A stretch of DNA of 54,758 nucleotides, taken from assembly GCA_018266795.1 (NCBI GenBank), contig JAFDZV010000047.1, positions 1-54,758 of the forward strand. The letters run 5' to 3'. Positions 28,661 through 38,186 of the stretch are shown one piece after another. The notes beneath the pieces are model-generated. The model was not told the origin of the DNA. It did not search any database and saw only the letters and a list, made by a program, of their open reading frames with translations. Position 1 is the first letter of the stretch. Each line of letters opens with the position of its first letter. A program made the translations under genes and the position numbers. Origin of the DNA: Bacteroidota bacterium. Lineage in GTDB: Bacteria > Bacteroidota > Ignavibacteria > OLB7.

Positions 28661-31363
28661 ATGGTACGGAGACTGCTACGACGTCCACAATCCATTGCCC
28701 TTCTGCTTGCTGCAATTGCTCTGCTCACAGCGGGCGCGCTGCATGCACAGCCGGTGGTGGTTTCATTCCCAACCGTTCCGTGCGACTCCGCTGCGTGCGA
28801 TTCCGTTGTGATTACGAACGGAACCACCGAATCGTGGCAACTGATCGCGCTCGACATGCGCGACAGCACCAGCTACAGAATCGGACCCGGAGTCTCGATT
28901 CCAACGGCGATCCCCTCCAACTCACGGCTCAACGTTCCCGTCTGTTTCGTACCGGAGCGTCGCGGCGCCATCAGCGATTCGCTTCTGATCATAGTGGCCA
29001 CCGCTCACGGCAACGATTCCATTCGCGTTCGCCTCACCGGCAGAGGAAGCGGGCCGGCGCTCGATGTTACGCCGAGTGTTCTGAACTTCCCGAAGACGAA
29101 CCCCGGCGCCAACGCCGTGCTGCCGATGGTGATCCACAACAACGGCGAGGGGCCGTATACGCTGGATGCCTCGAACCTTTCGATACCGCTCCCGTTCGTT
29201 CTGCAGACCACGCTGCCGCAGGTGATTCTCCCGGGCGACAGCCTGATCATCCAGGTGATGTTCAAGCCGGACAGCAACGGTATTTATTCCGTGGCGGTGA
29301 ACCTTCCATCCGGCTGTACATCTGTTCTGCAGCTCGGCTTCAATGGCGTTACCGATCTGATCGGTACCGGAGCGGTGATACGTCTCAGCAAGACCGGCTT
29401 CAATCCGGCCAACAACGAGCAGATCCCCTGCGACTCCGTGCGCTGCAGCACGCTCACCTTCTCGAATGTCGGCAATGCGCCGTTGATCGTGGAGAGCGTC
29501 GCGTGGGCCATCGGGTCGCTTGGCTATACGATCACGAACCCCATTCCAACGCCGTTCATCGTTGCGCCGCAGGCATCACGCGATATCGAGATCTGCATCA
29601 GCAGCAGGCAGCGCGGCATGTTGCGCGACACATTGCTCGTTACCAGCAACAGCCGCAGCTCCATCGCATTCGGCATGCTGATCGATGTCAGCGGTTCGAT
29701 GAAGGAGACGATGTACTGCGGCGCCACGCCCAGTACACGCATGGTACAGGCGATCACGCAGGCGAAAAACTTCATCAATCGCGCGCTCCTCTATCTCCCG
29801 GCCGTGGGCATTCTCGATGAGCTGGCCGTGACAACCTATACAACGTCGAACTTCGGCCGCTCCTCCATCAAGGACATCTTCCCGCTGCAGATCATTACCG
29901 ATCCCGCGCGCGCCACGGCGCTGAACGCGGTCAACGCTCTCACGCCGCAGGCGGGAACGCCCACCGGCGAGGCCGTGCGCCACATGGTGGATGTCGTAGC
30001 GAAGAGCACTCTCACCAACCGCGTGATCGTACTTCTCACGGACGGCGAAGCCGATACGGACGACCAGCTTACCTATCCGATTGCCCAGGTCGCTGCATAC
30101 GCGCAGCAGCGCGGCATCAGAGTGTTCACGATCGGCATCGGGCTGGATCCGTTGAAGGGCGGCCGGCAATACCTGCAGTCGCTTGCCAACGCAACGGGCG
30201 GGCAGGCATATGACGCCAGCGATTGCAGCTCGCTGCAGGCTGCGTTCGAGGCGATTACCGATCTGCTGAGCCGCGGCGCGAAGTCCCGCGAGCCGTTCCA
30301 GATCAAGATCCTTTCGCCGTACATCGTTCAGGTGCAGGATGTGGCGTTCGACTCCGTGTATGTGAAGGGAACCGAGTGCCACACAATCACGCTCACCAAT
30401 GCCGGCGAGGGAAACGCCGTGGTGGACAGCGTCAACTTCCGCACGATGCTCGGCGATCCGACAACGGAGTTCTCGCTTGGTTCCGGCGTCACGTTCCCGA
30501 TCACGATTCCGGAGAGCGGGCAGGTTCAGCTCACGGTCTGCTTCACACCGGACTCGATCCGGATGCGCCGCGGCAAGGTCACGTTCTACTACAACAGCTG
30601 CGGCGCCATTCCCGTGAGCGCGGGGCTCAGCGGTCCGGCATGGGCCGAAGCAAATCTTCGCATCACCGACAAGCGGATCGGCCTGCCCGGGCAGACCGTT
30701 ACGCTGCCGGTCTATTACGACAGCACGGTCTCCGCCTACAGCGTGGACACGATCACCTATCAGATGCGCTGGAACAAGACCATGCTCGATCTGCGAGGTG
30801 TGCGTCCCGGGGCTCAATCCGGCGGCGCAACGTTGACAGCCGGCCCGGTGCACTATGGTGACCGGGAGGCAACGGTGGATATCGTTGCAACGGGAAATCA
30901 CATGCCGGGTGCAGGCGAGCTGGCGCAGCTCGATTTCATGGTGCTGCGCGGAGATACGCTTGGCACCTCCGTGGAGCTGACCTCCGGAACGTTCGAGGAT
31001 GATAATCCCCGAACCATTCTGAACAATGCCGGCTTCGTTGAGTTGGACAGCACATGCTTCCGTTCCGCGAAGCCGATCAACGTAGGGGCCGCGGCCAAGA
31101 TTGCCGTTGGCGACGCAAGCCCCACTCCCGCCTCCGATCTGGTTGTGACACTTCCGGTCACCGCCGATGCCGATGCCATCATTACTCTGGAGCTGTACAG
31201 CAACGACGGAACGTTGCTGCGTCAGGCGCGCCGGTACGATCTCGTCGAGGGAACGAACAGCCTCACGATCGACCTCGATGGAATGGCCAGCGGAAGCTAC
31301 TACGCGATCGTGCGGGCGCAGGACGGCACGGCGCTCTTCCGCAAGATCCTTCTGGCCCGATGA
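28661..31363 (+). CDS. T9SS cargo with von Willebrand A domain inserted among Ig-like repeats
   Basis: 900 residues. The signal peptide is about residues 1-30 (LLLAAIALLTAGALHAQ). Residues 30-330 are choice-of-anchor D-like Ig repeats (LDVTPSVLNFPKTNPG, LSKTGFNPANNEQ). Residues about 335-545 are a vWA domain with a complete metal-ion adhesion site: DVSGS near 343-347, the GTPTGEAV threonine near 433 and LLTDGE near 460. Another Ig-like repeat follows (about 555-665), then a cohesin-like region (about 670-790: LRITDKRIGLPGQTVTLPVYY, YQMRWNKTMLDLRG, LAQLDFMVLRGDT). The last 80 residues are a sorting domain (DASPTPASDLVVTLP, LELYSNDGTLLRQ, GSYYAIVRAQDG). Likely a metal-dependent surface adhesion protein. 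Confidence 0.88.
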   Translation: MVRRLLRRPQSIALLLAAIALLTAGALHAQPVVVSFPTVPCDSAACDSVVITNGTTESWQLIALDMRDSTSYRIGPGVSIPTAIPSNSRLNVPVCFVPERRGAISDSLLIIVATAHGNDSIRVRLTGRGSGPALDVTPSVLNFPKTNPGANAVLPMVIHNNGEGPYTLDASNLSIPLPFVLQTTLPQVILPGDSLIIQVMFKPDSNGIYSVAVNLPSGCTSVLQLGFNGVTDLIGTGAVIRLSKTGFNPANNEQIPCDSVRCSTLTFSNVGNAPLIVESVAWAIGSLGYTITNPIPTPFIVAPQASRDIEICISSRQRGMLRDTLLVTSNSRSSIAFGMLIDVSGSMKETMYCGATPSTRMVQAITQAKNFINRALLYLPAVGILDELAVTTYTTSNFGRSSIKDIFPLQIITDPARATALNAVNALTPQAGTPTGEAVRHMVDVVAKSTLTNRVIVLLTDGEADTDDQLTYPIAQVAAYAQQRGIRVFTIGIGLDPLKGGRQYLQSLANATGGQAYDASDCSSLQAAFEAITDLLSRGAKSREPFQIKILSPYIVQVQDVAFDSVYVKGTECHTITLTNAGEGNAVVDSVNFRTMLGDPTTEFSLGSGVTFPITIPESGQVQLTVCFTPDSIRMRRGKVTFYYNSCGAIPVSAGLSGPAWAEANLRITDKRIGLPGQTVTLPVYYDSTVSAYSVDTITYQMRWNKTMLDLRGVRPGAQSGGATLTAGPVHYGDREATVDIVATGNHMPGAGELAQLDFMVLRGDTLGTSVELTSGTFEDDNPRTILNNAGFVELDSTCFRSAKPINVGAAAKIAVGDASPTPASDLVVTLPVTADADAIITLELYSNDGTLLRQARRYDLVEGTNSLTIDLDGMASGSYYAIVRAQDGTALFRKILLAR

Positions 31364-32333: not shown

Positions 32334-34328
32334 ATGCAACGATTGACCCTTCTTCAGTTCGCATCGCTTGCTGCGATGCTGGCCCTGGCCGCTCCCCTCT
32401 GCGCACAACCCACGAGCAGGGACACAGCCTTTCACATCATCAATCTCGACGCGCTCAATTCGCAGGGGGATGATTATGCGCCGTTCGTAACGGCGAACGA
32501 TCGCTGGTTGTACTTCACCAGCAATCGCAGCCGCTCCGCGGACGTGTATCGCTGCACGGCGGATGGCGATTCATGGAGCGCTCCGCAACTGCTGCCGAAC
32601 GATGAAATCAATTCCCCGCTGGACGAAGGCTCGCTCAGCGCCCCGGTGCCGCGGCAGAAACTTCTCTTCTCGCTCTCGGACGATGACCTCGCCAGGCTCT
32701 CGTTCACCGATGTCGCGGTTCTCACCGCGAGCGATCGCACGCATGGCCTTGGTGATGCCGACATTCAGGCTGTCGTGCTTGACTCCAATGGAAGCAGTCT
32801 GCATGATCTCCGCCCGTTGCACGAACTGAATTCGGGAGACTGGGATGCGCAGGCAACGCTTTCTCCGGACGGCACCTACATCGTCTTCGCTTCGAATCGT
32901 GAAGGCGGTGAGGGTGGAATGGACCTGTACGGTGCCACACGCAATCCGGACGGCAGCTTCTCCGCTCCGGTCAACCTTGGGCCCGAGATCAACACCAGCG
33001 GCAACGAGGTGTCGCCGTTCCTCTCCCCGGATGGGCGCACGCTCTTCTTCTCCAGCACAGGGCACAGCGGCTTCGGCGGAGCGGATATCTTCTCCAGCCG
33101 CCGAGGCGTAGACGGGCGTTGGGGGCCGGCAAAGAACCTGGGCTCGCAGATCAATACGAAGTACAACGAGGTGTTCTTCTTCTTCGGTGATCGCAGCCAT
33201 TGCTACTTCTCCAGCGACCGTCCGGGCGGCAAGGGAGGGCTGGATCTGTATATGGGCGGCCCAAACATCTTCGTTGATGCCTACTCCGTCATCCGCGTGC
33301 AGCTGCTGGATACAACCACGGGGAAGAACGTGGCGGGACGTGTTGCCGTGAAGGAGACGTCGCTTTCCCGTACCATCGGAGATGTGGACGCGCTTTCCGG
33401 CGTTGCATCGTTTCAGGTGCTGGATGGCCTGGACTACAGCGTTGCGGCCGATGCGCCCGGCTATGACCGTCCGCTGCCGGTGACGGTGCGGAACGTAGCT
33501 CTGAATTCCACAGTGGACTGCCTCATCAAATTCGGCAGCCCGCCGCCGCCGCCGCCGCTCGCGGACATTCCGCCGATCGTGCCCCCTCCTCCGCCACCGC
33601 CTCCGGAACCGCCGCTTCCACCGGCGCCGGTGATCTTCACGTTCGATGTTGCCGGAAAGGTTGTTCCGTTCTTCGTGAGCGGCTACTACCGTCTCAACAC
33701 TCGTATCTCGCTTGCGGAGCTGCGCAGGCGGCAGAACAGCGACCTTCGCGATCAGACGTACATCACCGATGTGAACCGCGATCGCGAGGCGTTTGTGGAG
33801 AACGACAACTTCGCCGCGCAGGTGGAACATCTGCTGGATGATTTCGTGCAGCGGTGTCAGAAGACCTACTTCCCCGGCTTCGTGGATTATCTGAAGGCGA
33901 AGAGCCCGAACGATCCGAAGGAGTACATCCAGCTTACGGTGTACGGGTTTGCCGATCCGCGTCCGATTATCGGCGCATACACCGAACAGCCGGTGGACTT
34001 CCTGGATTCGGCGGGCAATTCGGTGACGGTGAAGAGCTGGGAGAAGCTGGACAACTTCAAGCTTGCCGGCCTGCGCGCGCATTACAGCGTGGAGTACTTC
34101 GACAACCTGTTCCGCAAGGGACGTGCCCGGAAGGTGTACACACAGCTCCTGCAGCAGAACCTTGTACGGTGGCGCGCCGTGAGCGGCAGTGTCGACGATC
34201 TGAACGCATTGACATCCGGCGAGGACCTCGGCACCAAACGCCGCATCGTTGTGGAGATGCGGTTGATAAAGGAAGGTGAGGATGCGGATGGCGGGAAGAA
34301 GATCGGGCGCGGCGTGGGGACACCGTAG
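32334..34328 (+). CDS. PD40 propeller protein with polyproline hinge and OmpA-like C-terminus
   Basis: 664 residues. The signal peptide is residues 1-24 (ending LCAQ). Residues 40-320 are PD40/WD40-like propeller repeats (YAPFVTANDRWLYFTSNR, ATLSPDGTYIVFASNREGG, VSPFLSPDGRTLFFSSTG, YFSSDRPGGKGGLDLYMG). Residues about 325-395 resemble a carboxypeptidase-regulatory-like domain. A Pro/Ala hinge runs about 402-432. The C-terminal half ends in LRAHYSVEYFDNLFRKG and GTKRRIVVEMRLI, a divergent form of the OmpA peptidoglycan-binding ending. The domain order matches PorE-like proteins and other envelope anchors of T9SS bacteria. With the upstream barrel it probably links outer membrane and cell wall; a direct T9SS role is inference. 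Confidence 0.82.
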   Translation: MQRLTLLQFASLAAMLALAAPLCAQPTSRDTAFHIINLDALNSQGDDYAPFVTANDRWLYFTSNRSRSADVYRCTADGDSWSAPQLLPNDEINSPLDEGSLSAPVPRQKLLFSLSDDDLARLSFTDVAVLTASDRTHGLGDADIQAVVLDSNGSSLHDLRPLHELNSGDWDAQATLSPDGTYIVFASNREGGEGGMDLYGATRNPDGSFSAPVNLGPEINTSGNEVSPFLSPDGRTLFFSSTGHSGFGGADIFSSRRGVDGRWGPAKNLGSQINTKYNEVFFFFGDRSHCYFSSDRPGGKGGLDLYMGGPNIFVDAYSVIRVQLLDTTTGKNVAGRVAVKETSLSRTIGDVDALSGVASFQVLDGLDYSVAADAPGYDRPLPVTVRNVALNSTVDCLIKFGSPPPPPPLADIPPIVPPPPPPPPEPPLPPAPVIFTFDVAGKVVPFFVSGYYRLNTRISLAELRRRQNSDLRDQTYITDVNRDREAFVENDNFAAQVEHLLDDFVQRCQKTYFPGFVDYLKAKSPNDPKEYIQLTVYGFADPRPIIGAYTEQPVDFLDSAGNSVTVKSWEKLDNFKLAGLRAHYSVEYFDNLFRKGRARKVYTQLLQQNLVRWRAVSGSVDDLNALTSGEDLGTKRRIVVEMRLIKEGEDADGGKKIGRGVGTP

Positions 34329-34674
34329 GAACGGCAGGCAGCGAATGTCACTCTTCGGCACGGAGCCGGCTGGTCTGTGCTCGGCGCCGATGTTATCGCC
34401 GCGGCTGCCGGAGTTCGGCGTGGCGATATCCGCTGTGGGAGATGGTTGATCGAATCGTGTTGCGACGATCCATTGATGTCCGAAGGGTGGGCGGCCGAAC
34501 TACCGTTCCGCATCCTTCGCTCCGGAATCTCGGGATGTAGTATCTGCAGGGAGCACGGCCACATCTTTTATTCAGGCTGTGCGTTCGAATCGGCAATGCA
34601 ATGTGCCGGTGTCTGGCCGTCTCGGATGTGCCGTGCCGGGCGCTTTTCTTGATTAATAGATCGTGAGTGCTGCA
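34329..34674. other. Intergenic spacer upstream of the channel gene
   Basis: 346 bases without a supported gene or strong structure. It should contain the promoter for the following gene; no clear promoter match is seen. Confidence 0.4.
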
Positions 34675-35757
34675 ATGAATGTCAAGTCCGCCTTCGGTGT
34701 GATTGTGTTCCTCCTGTTGCCTGTCACCAGCCACCTCTGCGCACAATCCGGCGACAATCATCAACGGAAGCTTCTGATTGGAACGAAGGTGGCCCCGCCC
34801 TTTGCGATGAAGGATAGCAGCGGCGTGTGGCGCGGACTGAGCATCGAGCTGTGGCAGCGGATCGCTGCCGATATGAAGATGGAGTACGAATTCAGAGAGT
34901 ATGACCTTCAGGGGCTTCTCCGTGCAGTCAGGGACAGCACCGTCGATGCCGGCGTTGCAGCATTGAGCATCACCGCCGAGCGCGAGGCGCTCATGGACTT
35001 TACGCATCCGTATTACAACAGCGGCCTCGGCATCGCCGTGGTGCCGACGCGCAAGGCCGAATGGCTGGGCGTTCTGGAACAACTCCTCTCCCTCAAGCTT
35101 CTTCTGATCATTGCGTTGCTTGCCATCGGCACCGTCGTTGTCGGAGCCCTGATGTGGCTGGTGGAGCGCGGACGCAATCCCAGCCAGTTCGGCGGCACGG
35201 GACTGCGCGGACTTGGTTCCGGTATGTGGTGGTCCGCCGTGACCATGACAACGGTCGGCTACGGCGACAAGGCGCCCGTGACGCTGATCGGCCGTCTGCT
35301 GGCCCTCTGCTGGATGATAGCAGCGATCATCATCATATCGGTGTTCACGGCTACGATCACGGCCAAGCTGACGGTAAGCCAGCTCGAGTCGTCGATACGC
35401 GGGCCGGAAGATCTGGCGAACGTGAATGTCGGGACGGTGATCGGCTCCACCAGCGAACGATACCTCCAGGCGCATCATGTTCGCTATCGCACATTCAAGA
35501 CACCTGTGGAAGGGCTGTCGTCGGTTGCGTCCGGTACGATCGACGCGATGGTCTACGATGCGCCCATGCTGCAATACCTCTGCAGCCATCAGATGAGGGA
35601 TGCCGTGCACGTGCTTCCCAACGTGTTCGAGCGCCAGTACTACGGCATCGCGCTCCCGGCACGGAGCCCCTTGCGTAAGGAGATCAACAAGGCGCTGCTG
35701 AACGAAACGCATCAGACGGTGTGGGGCGATCTTCTGTTCGAGTATCTGGGTGAGTGA
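34675..35757 (+). CDS. GluR0-like ligand-gated potassium channel (substrate-binding domain split by a pore)
   Basis: 360 residues from the ATG at 34675; a GTG at 34663 is an alternative. The signal peptide is about residues 1-24 (ending LCAQ). Lobe S1 (32-135) is a bacterial extracellular solute-binding fold with ALSITAERE, where R103 matches the ligand alpha-carboxyl-binding arginine. M1 spans about 140-163, the pore loop contains TMTTVGYGD at 191-198 (the potassium selectivity signature), and M2 spans about 204-232 and ends SVFTATITAKLTVSQLES. Lobe S2 (240-345) contains MVYDAP, with D295 matching the amino-group-binding acid. This is the order in cyanobacterial GluR0 and eukaryotic ionotropic glutamate receptors. 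Predicted inner-membrane channel with a periplasmic ligand site; the ligand is not known. Confidence 0.9.
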   Translation: MNVKSAFGVIVFLLLPVTSHLCAQSGDNHQRKLLIGTKVAPPFAMKDSSGVWRGLSIELWQRIAADMKMEYEFREYDLQGLLRAVRDSTVDAGVAALSITAEREALMDFTHPYYNSGLGIAVVPTRKAEWLGVLEQLLSLKLLLIIALLAIGTVVVGALMWLVERGRNPSQFGGTGLRGLGSGMWWSAVTMTTVGYGDKAPVTLIGRLLALCWMIAAIIIISVFTATITAKLTVSQLESSIRGPEDLANVNVGTVIGSTSERYLQAHHVRYRTFKTPVEGLSSVASGTIDAMVYDAPMLQYLCSHQMRDAVHVLPNVFERQYYGIALPARSPLRKEINKALLNETHQTVWGDLLFEYLGE

Positions 35758-35812
35758 TGGTTGCGCGGGTCGGGAGTCCGGTTTCGTGTTCGGCGGCCGG
35801 CGGAGCTGCAGG

Positions 35813-37117
35813 CTACATTCTCCGCACAACCTCCTCGAGTGCGTGCGTGCCGAACTCCAGGGCCTCCACGGGAATGCGCTCATCCGCCGCATGAATCGTG
35901 CGGGAGAAGTTGAACCCGGCGGGAAGGGTCATCGGCAGAAAGCCGTGGCACTGAATGCCGAGCCGTGAGAAGAAGCGGGCATCGGTGCTGGCGCCGAGCA
36001 GATAGGGAATTGGTTTGCCGCCGGGATCGGCCTTGCGCACGATATCCGCGAGCGTTGGGAAGAGGCCCATATCCAGCGTTGCGGGCGAGGGCTCGTCAGC
36101 AAGCATTTCCACCTCGAAGTCCACCCCGAGAAGCGCGCGGAGTTCGGCGATCATGTCCGCAGATGTCATGCCGGGAAGAAGGCGCCCGTCGATGTCGAGA
36201 GTCGCGTGCGCCGGGATCACGTTGATGCGCTCCCCGGCGCTGATACCGGTGGCGTTGGCAGTGTTGTGCAGGAGGGGATCGAACACTTCTCCGCGTTCCC
36301 CCAGCACATTCAACATGCGATCGGTTAGCGAGGGCGAGAGAAGCGCTCGCATTACCATGCGGGTAGCAGGCGGCACCGCCCTGGCGATCGCGTTCAACAT
36401 CAGCTGTGCCGCTTCGGTTACGTGCACCGGAAGGCGTTTCTCATCAAGCGTGCGCAGAATTCTTGCAACGTCCGCCGTCACGCCGCCGCGCGCAGAAAGC
36501 GCTCCATGGCCTGCATGGCCGTGCAGGTGGAGCCGCATCTGGCAGATCCCCTTCTCCGCAACCTGCACCGGATAGAATCGCCGGCCCGCAATCTCGAACG
36601 TGAAGCCGCCAAACTCGCCTACCGCATAGCGAATGCCGTTGAAGAGCGACGGATGTTCATGAACGAGATAGCGCGCACCATACGTGCTACCGGCCTCCTC
36701 GTCGCTCAGAACGGCAAGCATCAGATCGCCTCGCGGGACGCCCGCTGCGTGCGTGCGAAGAAATGCCGCCAGCATCATCGCAACGCCCCCCTTCATATCC
36801 AACGCTCCGCGGCCCCAGATGAACCCGTCCGCAATGCATGCCGCGAAGGGTGGATACGTCCACTCCTGTCCCTGAGTGGTGACAACGTCAACGTGTCCCT
36901 GCATCAGCAGGCCGGGCGCCCTGCCCTCTCCGGCGAGACGCGCAATCAGATTGGGTCTGCTCGTATCGCGCGCCACGATCCTCGTCTCGATGCCCGCATC
37001 ATGCAGCAGCGTCGCGATGAAGTGGATGCACTCCGCCTCGTTGCCCGGGGGATTGGTGGTGTCGAAACGGATAAGCCGTTGAAGAAGTTCTGCAGGGGAC
37101 ATGGCATGTCGATGCAT
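35813..37117 (-). CDS. M20-family metallohydrolase
   Basis: 434 residues. The M20 metal site is visible: GHVDVV (H75, D77), RGALDMKGG (D107), SDEEAGS (E140 catalytic and E141 ligand), E168 in GEFGG and a late histidine in RTIHAADE. The dimerisation domain lies in the middle, with HGHAGHGALS. Such enzymes act as dipeptidases, aminoacylases or N-acyl amino acid deacylases; the exact substrate is not readable. The start at 37117 has no clear ribosome binding site; 37102 (MSPAELL) is possible. It begins 15 bases after the gene at 37133 and is the last gene of a minus-strand run. No signal peptide, so probably cytoplasmic. Confidence 0.88.
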   Translation of the reverse strand: MHRHAMSPAELLQRLIRFDTTNPPGNEAECIHFIATLLHDAGIETRIVARDTSRPNLIARLAGEGRAPGLLMQGHVDVVTTQGQEWTYPPFAACIADGFIWGRGALDMKGGVAMMLAAFLRTHAAGVPRGDLMLAVLSDEEAGSTYGARYLVHEHPSLFNGIRYAVGEFGGFTFEIAGRRFYPVQVAEKGICQMRLHLHGHAGHGALSARGGVTADVARILRTLDEKRLPVHVTEAAQLMLNAIARAVPPATRMVMRALLSPSLTDRMLNVLGERGEVFDPLLHNTANATGISAGERINVIPAHATLDIDGRLLPGMTSADMIAELRALLGVDFEVEMLADEPSPATLDMGLFPTLADIVRKADPGGKPIPYLLGASTDARFFSRLGIQCHGFLPMTLPAGFNFSRTIHAADERIPVEALEFGTHALEEVVRRM

Positions 37118-37132
37118 GAGCCGGAGCCGGCA

Positions 37133-37525
37133 TTACCTGATCGCAACTGTCAACGTATAGTTCGTCCTTGCCCCCTTGCGCCGTGCGTTGGCGCGCATCA
37201 TCAGCACGCGCACCACATAATCGCCGCTTTGGCTCAATGTCTGGTTCCATTCCGTCGTTTCGGACATGTCGTTCGCTTGGCCATTGATCGACGTGACCAC
37301 GAAGACGGCGTAGTCGTTGCTGGAGGAGACCGTAATGCTCATCTGCTGCCCGGCCTTCGCACCGATGACGTAGTCCTTGTACGCGAATCCCTTGATGCTC
37401 CCTTTTACGACGCCGGCCGTTGCTCCCCTGGTGAAGCGGATGCGTTGGGGCGTCTGCGACATTGCATCAGCCGATGCAATGAGCAGAAACGCGAGTGCGG
37501 CAGAGATGACAGTACGTGAGCGCAT
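37133..37525 (-). CDS. Small secreted protein, PliG / pre-peptidase-like fold suspected
   Basis: 130 residues. The signal peptide is about residues 1-24 (MRSRTVISAALAFLLIASADA, then MSQ). The mature part has IRFTRGATAGVVKGSIKG, DYVIGAKAGQQMSITVSSS, YAVFVV and SGDYVVRVLMMR. This order of strands is seen in inhibitor-of-g-type-lysozyme and bacterial pre-peptidase C-terminal-like domains. The match is weak and function is inferred only at fold level. It sits between the NlpE-like lipoprotein and the M20 hydrolase on the same strand. Confidence 0.65.
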   Translation of the reverse strand: MRSRTVISAALAFLLIASADAMSQTPQRIRFTRGATAGVVKGSIKGFAYKDYVIGAKAGQQMSITVSSSNDYAVFVVTSINGQANDMSETTEWNQTLSQSGDYVVRVLMMRANARRKGARTNYTLTVAIR

Positions 37526-37595
37526 GGGGCTGTCCGGAATGGGTTTTCAATTGATGAATCGTGCCGGGCCGGGGAACATGCCGTTGTACGCGGCG

Positions 37596-38081
37596 TTACT
37601 TGCGAAGCAGGTGCCACAACGGTTGCGGTGCATTGGGGCCGGGGAGCGCCACCATCTCGATGTCCCGCCACATGAATGCAAGCGAATCGTTCACCGGCGT
37701 CTTGTCCTGCATGGTGATGTGAAGCGTCACCAGGGAATCACTGCGCGACCATGTGCCGAAGCGGCGAATGAGCAGTTTGCCGCCGGTGTTGTCGTTCAGG
37801 ACAAATTGCCTGTCCAGCCGGAGCAGGAGCGCAATCACGTGATGCACGTTGCTGTTCTCCGGCAACACCTCCGTATACGTCCCTGCAACGCTGGAATCGC
37901 TCAACGGCTTGTTGTGCCAGCGTGTGCCTGTAGGCTTTGCAAGCGCCGAGTCTGTTGCGGCGGACGTGGAGTCATGGGGCTGGCGTTGCTGGCCGGGTGT
38001 GCTGCATGCAGCAACCAGAAGCACAACGGCAAGCACGAGGCTCGCGAGAAGCGAGGATGGTACGGCAGGTACTGTTCGCAT
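37596..38081 (-). CDS. NlpE-like lipoprotein lacking the cysteine motif
   Basis: 161 residues from the Met at 38081, which gives a compact lipoprotein signal with lipobox LVAAC and the lipidated cysteine at residue 26; a longer start at 38150 is possible. The mature part shows the NlpE pattern of GTYTEVLPE, LLLRLDRQFVLND and RFGTWSRSDSLVTL. NlpE proteins normally carry a CxxC motif after LP; it is absent here. Family knowledge links NlpE to envelope stress sensing and copper resistance, but without the cysteines a metal role is doubtful. Probably anchored in the outer membrane facing the periplasm. Confidence 0.7.
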   Translation of the reverse strand: MRTVPAVPSSLLASLVLAVVLLVAACSTPGQQRQPHDSTSAATDSALAKPTGTRWHNKPLSDSSVAGTYTEVLPENSNVHHVIALLLRLDRQFVLNDNTGGKLLIRRFGTWSRSDSLVTLHITMQDKTPVNDSLAFMWRDIEMVALPGPNAPQPLWHLLRK

Positions 38082-38186
38082 TGGGGCGATGGATTGGTTC
38101 GTCGGCAGGATTGGAAGTTGTATGCGGGTCTCCGTTCGCCACGCACGCATGCGCCGATGGTGCGTGGCGACTGGAGAAGCACTGGG

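Follow-up and report, generated by a model that had tools for sequence, protein, structure and literature searches.

A gene for a probable GluR0-like ligand-gated potassium channel in a member of the Bacteroidota

The window analysed here, the whole 54,758 nucleotides of contig JAFDZV010000047.1, contains a gene for a GluR0-like channel on the forward strand (34675..35757; assigned on frame, Pfam, homologues, structural model and fold match). The frame is intact from the ATG at 34675 to the TGA at 35757, giving the protein of 360 amino acids that had been predicted, while an alternative in-frame GTG start at 34663 would lengthen this by 4 amino acids. The gene is alone on its strand, 346 bp from the upstream gene (334 bp from the GTG start), and no consensus promoter was found in region 34300-35900. 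Its base composition is native (GC 0.600, GC3 0.765), matching that of neighbouring genes (0.58-0.63 and 0.71-0.78, respectively). Convergent with it, and ending 55 bp downstream of it, is a gene for an M20 peptidase of the PRK07906 subfamily (35813..37117, reverse strand; Pfam and subfamily match) with no evident signal peptide. Elsewhere in the window (28661-31363), a protein of 900 aa is encoded in which Ig-like, HYDIN/Cep192-like repeats surround a VWA domain; this gene and the OMP and PD40 genes downstream of it are conserved in two genomes of the same family. At least 150 matches to T9SS sorting tails were identified in the 5.97 Mb genome, which confirms a Bacteroidota host and with it the FCB-group origin first proposed.

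Four Pfam matches were obtained for the channel protein, all exceeding the curated cut-offs and with the domains in the order of ionotropic glutamate receptors (iGluRs): SBP_bac_3 (1.8e-21), Lig_chan (1.5e-15), Lig_chan-Glu_bd (4.3e-12) and Ion_trans_2 (PF07885; 6.6e-12, 45.6 bits against a cut-off of 22.5). The SBP_bac_3 match covers residues 35-345, with the other three lying in between or overlapping it. These E-values, together with full-length homologues of 29-51% identity in several phyla, place the assignment above chance. An AlphaFold2 model built from 55 aligned homologues (mean pLDDT 90.7) has the order S1, M1, pore helix, filter, M2, S2. The N-terminus (residues 1-26, 34675..34752; model confidence low, 56-59) is a hydrophobic stretch that is signal-peptide-like in its hydropathy and is read as a putative signal peptide. 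It is followed by the S1 half of the ligand-binding domain (residues 31-122, 34765..35040; Pfam, alignment and model), which includes Lys38, Ser98, Thr100 and Arg103, then by the M1 helix (residues 140-164, 35092..35166; model and hydropathy), the pore helix (residues 176-191, 35200..35247; model), the K+ selectivity filter TTVGYGD (residues 192-198, 35248..35268; translation and homologue alignment), the M2 inner helix with gate motif SVFTATITAKLT (residues 204-235, 35284..35379; alignment and model) and the S2 half (residues 244-360, 35404..35754; alignment, model and fold match), which includes Gly257-Ser258-Thr259 and Asp295, all on the forward strand.

The original prediction described a substrate-binding fold interrupted by M1, a TTVGYGD pore and M2, and the Pfam order and the AlphaFold2 model agree on this, with pore helix and filter sitting between M1 and M2. 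The ligand-site residues Arg103 and Asp295, as well as the filter, are present at the predicted positions in the translation and the homologue alignment. The further description of a complete set of iGluR features is right as far as the prokaryotic core of these receptors goes; it does not extend to the amino-terminal domain and M4, which are absent. Superposition of the binding domain gave close matches to NpGluR0 with bound L-glutamate (PDB accession no. 2PYY; Z 29.8, 1.5 A over 211 residues, 36% identity) and to GluR0 (PDB accession no. 1II5; Z 28.9, 1.8 A over 218 residues), while Foldseek analysis of the whole-chain model ranked structures of the ligand-binding and transmembrane domains of AMPA receptors at the top (E about 2e-22). 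By sequence, the NpGluR0 binding core ranks first among solved structures (E 2.5e-34), ahead of periplasmic amino-acid-binding proteins and of GluD2. The GluR0-like reading is consistent with the architecture, the K+ filter, the residues of the ligand site and the fold predicted for the chain. A pore-free family-3 solute-binding protein of an ABC transporter was ruled out by the insertion of M1, pore and M2 in the binding domain.

The channel belongs to the known prokaryotic iGluRs with a K+ signature (GluR0; Group 1) and is a clear, ordinary member of the GluR0 family. The order S1-M1-P-M2-S2, the K+ filter, the S1 Arg and the S2 Asp are common to it and to the Group 1 proteins, which have been described as 'putative glutamate-sensitive potassium channels' (Ger et al. 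2010, PMC2950845); no defining difference separates the two, making it a further member from another Bacteroidota lineage. The cyanobacterial GluR0 (slr1257 of Synechocystis), which has been studied by experiment, is alike in architecture and in binding-core fold, with Arg and Asp motifs VTPERAA and MFDRPA against ITAEREA and VYDAPM here, but the binding cores share 26% identity, Lys38 lies in the pocket here, the host lineage differs and the function of the present protein is predicted. NpGluR0 of Nostoc punctiforme provides the closest solved core and has a basic residue at the position of Lys38; it was compared by binding core only, the pore being absent from the PDB match, and in the tree it pairs with a Kovacikia homologue whose pore is without GYGD. 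Eukaryotic iGluRs (AMPA, delta and NMDA) show a similar arrangement of binding domain and pore, and the M2 gate FTATITAKLTVSQLESSI resembles M3 of GluD2 (YTANLAAFLTITRIESSI); unlike them, the protein has a K+ filter. Assignment as a eukaryotic-type iGluR was rejected, as the protein stops after S2 and only about 30 residues precede S1.

Homologues were found in Alphaproteobacteria, Desulfovibrionaceae, Planctomycetota, Verrucomicrobiota and Gemmatimonadota, and carriers amount to 31 of the 395 genomes sampled from the phylum and 21 of 391 from the class (the genome of the window being counted in both). For the GluR0 family, hosts from the FCB group are no novelty. Some of the Group 1 accessions reportedly also come from relatives of Chlorobium, and several carriers of close homologues, from families f31 and f29, have genes for chlorosome proteins (PF02043), which identifies them as green sulfur bacteria or their kin. 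The main text of Ger et al. 2010 (PMC2950845) makes no mention of Chlorobi by name. Phylogenetic analysis placed the protein within a broad bacterial family with no firm neighbours; deep branches are weak, and GluR0 was represented by two binding-core segments only. A single clade of the protein and its class-mates was not rejected (p-AU 0.126), so that the phylogeny gave no clear signal of lateral transfer.

Variation among the homologues affects both filter and pocket. The GYGD filter is kept in 46 of 55 homologues. In a well-supported Rhizobiales clade (L009-L011, L020, L023, L026-L028 and L095) it is replaced, for example by TQASTGH or TQRADAS, while the Arg and Asp ligand residues are kept; it is also replaced in L067 and in homologues of Kovacikia, Vibrio and Photobacterium (L092-L094). 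These replacements are probably several independent shifts of ion selectivity. A Desulfovibrionaceae homologue (L029:4920-5990) has TTVGYGD, but both ligand residues are gone, PITPDLERR standing where the Arg motif would be and VESRP where the Asp motif would be, and it may bind a different ligand or none. The frames of the homologues L060 (G415) and L034 (Cephaloticoccus MAG) are interrupted early or by an in-frame TGA, which could mark either decayed genes or assembly errors.

In the pocket, Arg103 is conserved in 54 of 55 homologues, Asp295 in 53 and Thr100 in 51, and in the alignment Arg103 and Asp295 fall on the positions where NpGluR0 has its ligand-binding Arg and Asp. The S1 Arg is described as binding the alpha-carboxylate and the S2 Asp the alpha-amino group of the ligand (Ger et al. 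2010, PMC2950845). In the glutamine-binding protein GlnBP of E. coli, Asp10 contacts the side chain of the ligand, Gly68, Thr70 and Arg75 interact with its alpha groups, and on closure the small domain contributes further contacts through Asp157 and Gly119 (PMC7400645). Residues 31-122 of the channel match residues 3-94 of GlnBP at equal length; with the offset deduced from these lengths, Arg103 would correspond to Arg75, Ser98 to Thr70 and Lys38 to Asp10. A basic residue, either Lys or Arg, occupies position 38 in 44 of the 55 homologues, NpGluR0 having Arg there, and for this reason Lys38 suggests a pocket preferring an acidic ligand. By analogy, the ligand is most likely glutamate or another acidic alpha-amino acid.

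Considering sequence, architecture, conservation and predicted fold, the gene product is very probably a prokaryotic iGluR of the GluR0 type, an amino-acid-gated K+ channel. Its orientation, tetrameric assembly, gating and K+ selectivity are inferred from GluR0, for which PhoA fusions indicate periplasmic binding halves (PMC13099474). The binding domain would thus face the periplasm, where an alpha-amino acid would bridge Arg103 (through its alpha-carboxylate) and Asp295 (through its alpha-amino group). Closure of the clamshell would put both the M1-S1 linker and the M2-S2 linker under tension and so open the M2 bundle, and K+ would pass the TTVGYGD filter, entered from the cytoplasmic side, of a tetrameric pore. 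GluR0 rescues K+ uptake in E. coli LB2003, with removal of the binding domains abolishing rescue, and shows a volume phenotype (PMC13099474); rapid adjustment of K+ flux and membrane potential after KCl upshock has been proposed as its role. A similar response to extracellular amino acids is tentatively suggested for the channel described here.

Annotation of relatives as 'transporter substrate-binding domain-containing protein', and best NCBIfam matches to ABC-transporter binding proteins (all far under cut-off), could point to a binding protein or transporter component anchored in the membrane without channel function, or to a decayed channel. Such readings are highly improbable given that the K+ filter and pore-helix motif are intact, the M2 gate motif is conserved and Ion_trans_2 and Lig_chan are over their curated cut-offs; moreover, no ABC permease or ATPase domain was identified among the adjacent genes scanned with Pfam, and an intact frame and normal composition speak against decay. 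A greater share of doubt concerns the ligand, as the same channel could respond to a ligand that is no amino acid, or to one of the small neutral amino acids, for instance serine, alanine or glutamine. GluR0 has been crystallised with both glutamate and serine, going by the title of reference 17 in PMC13099474, AvGluR1 appears among the fold-match structures with serine and phenylalanine, and close matches of the binding domain include glutamine- and arginine-binding proteins. This is nevertheless judged rather unlikely, since Arg103 and Asp295 favour an alpha-amino acid and the position of the side-chain contact Asp10 in GlnBP is occupied by Lys38 here and by Arg in L-glutamate-bound NpGluR0.

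The history of the locus was examined by comparison with a congener (G001), in which a block of 3858 bp (34329..38186, no strand assigned) is missing from the syntenic site and the genes orthologous to those on either side of it (PD40/OmpA-like, 48% identity; M29 aminopeptidase, 83% identity) lie about 88 bp apart. This 3.86 kb block contains the channel gene, the M20 peptidase gene and two small ORFs of unknown function. No channel homologue was found in any of the four family genomes examined; the M20 peptidase was likewise absent from all four, and a 184-aa ORF (37596-38150) was not found in them, in searches run without a positive control, so that these latter absences weigh less than the empty site in the congener. 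As channel and peptidase are both missing from these genomes, gain of the block in this lineage is suggested as a simpler reading than loss. It is unlikely, if somewhat in keeping with the native composition, the homologues in class-mates of another family and the joint clade that was not rejected, that the family had the gene ancestrally and the four relatives sampled have since lost it: the channel and the co-located peptidase are absent from each, the congener lacks the whole block at a conserved site, and the search of these genomes gave no family-3 binding domain at all.

The channel gene probably entered the lineage whole. A profile search of this genome gave no SBP_bac_3 match apart from the binding domain of the channel, and the same was seen in three other carriers (G256, G030 and G054), and the four family relatives gave no match; 12 of the 14 control genomes were positive in this search. 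With no other family-3 binding domain present, an origin by local fusion of a resident binding protein and a resident K+ pore is unlikely. Three other Ion_trans_2 genes are present in the genome and resemble, by inspection, RCK-type, Kir-type and voltage-gated-type channels. No conserved gene neighbourhood was found among 51 homologue loci, save synteny inside close clades, and the channel therefore has no pathway link. A functional tie between channel and M20 peptidase was rejected on the PRK07906 match, the lack of an evident signal peptide and the lack of recurrence beside homologues, and their co-location is taken as incidental.

What is new here is the empty syntenic site for the 3.86 kb block and the occurrence of the channel's binding domain as the sole family-3 binding domain in the four carriers checked. 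A wider reading, which is distinctly doubtful, would make a recently gained amino-acid-gated K+ channel the bacterium's only family-3 amino-acid sensor, coupling external glutamate or aspartate to membrane potential, not uptake, with position 38 setting the acidic preference throughout the large K/R38 branch. The present case shows that a genome can carry such a channel as a stand-alone gene and have no other family-3 amino-acid-binding domain, which favours spread of the channel in intact form over local fusion of a binding protein with a K+ pore. Position 38 in the alignment offers a simple handle on ligand choice across the family, and the GluR0 family, with its bearing on the origin of neuronal glutamate receptors, gains another Bacteroidota lineage.
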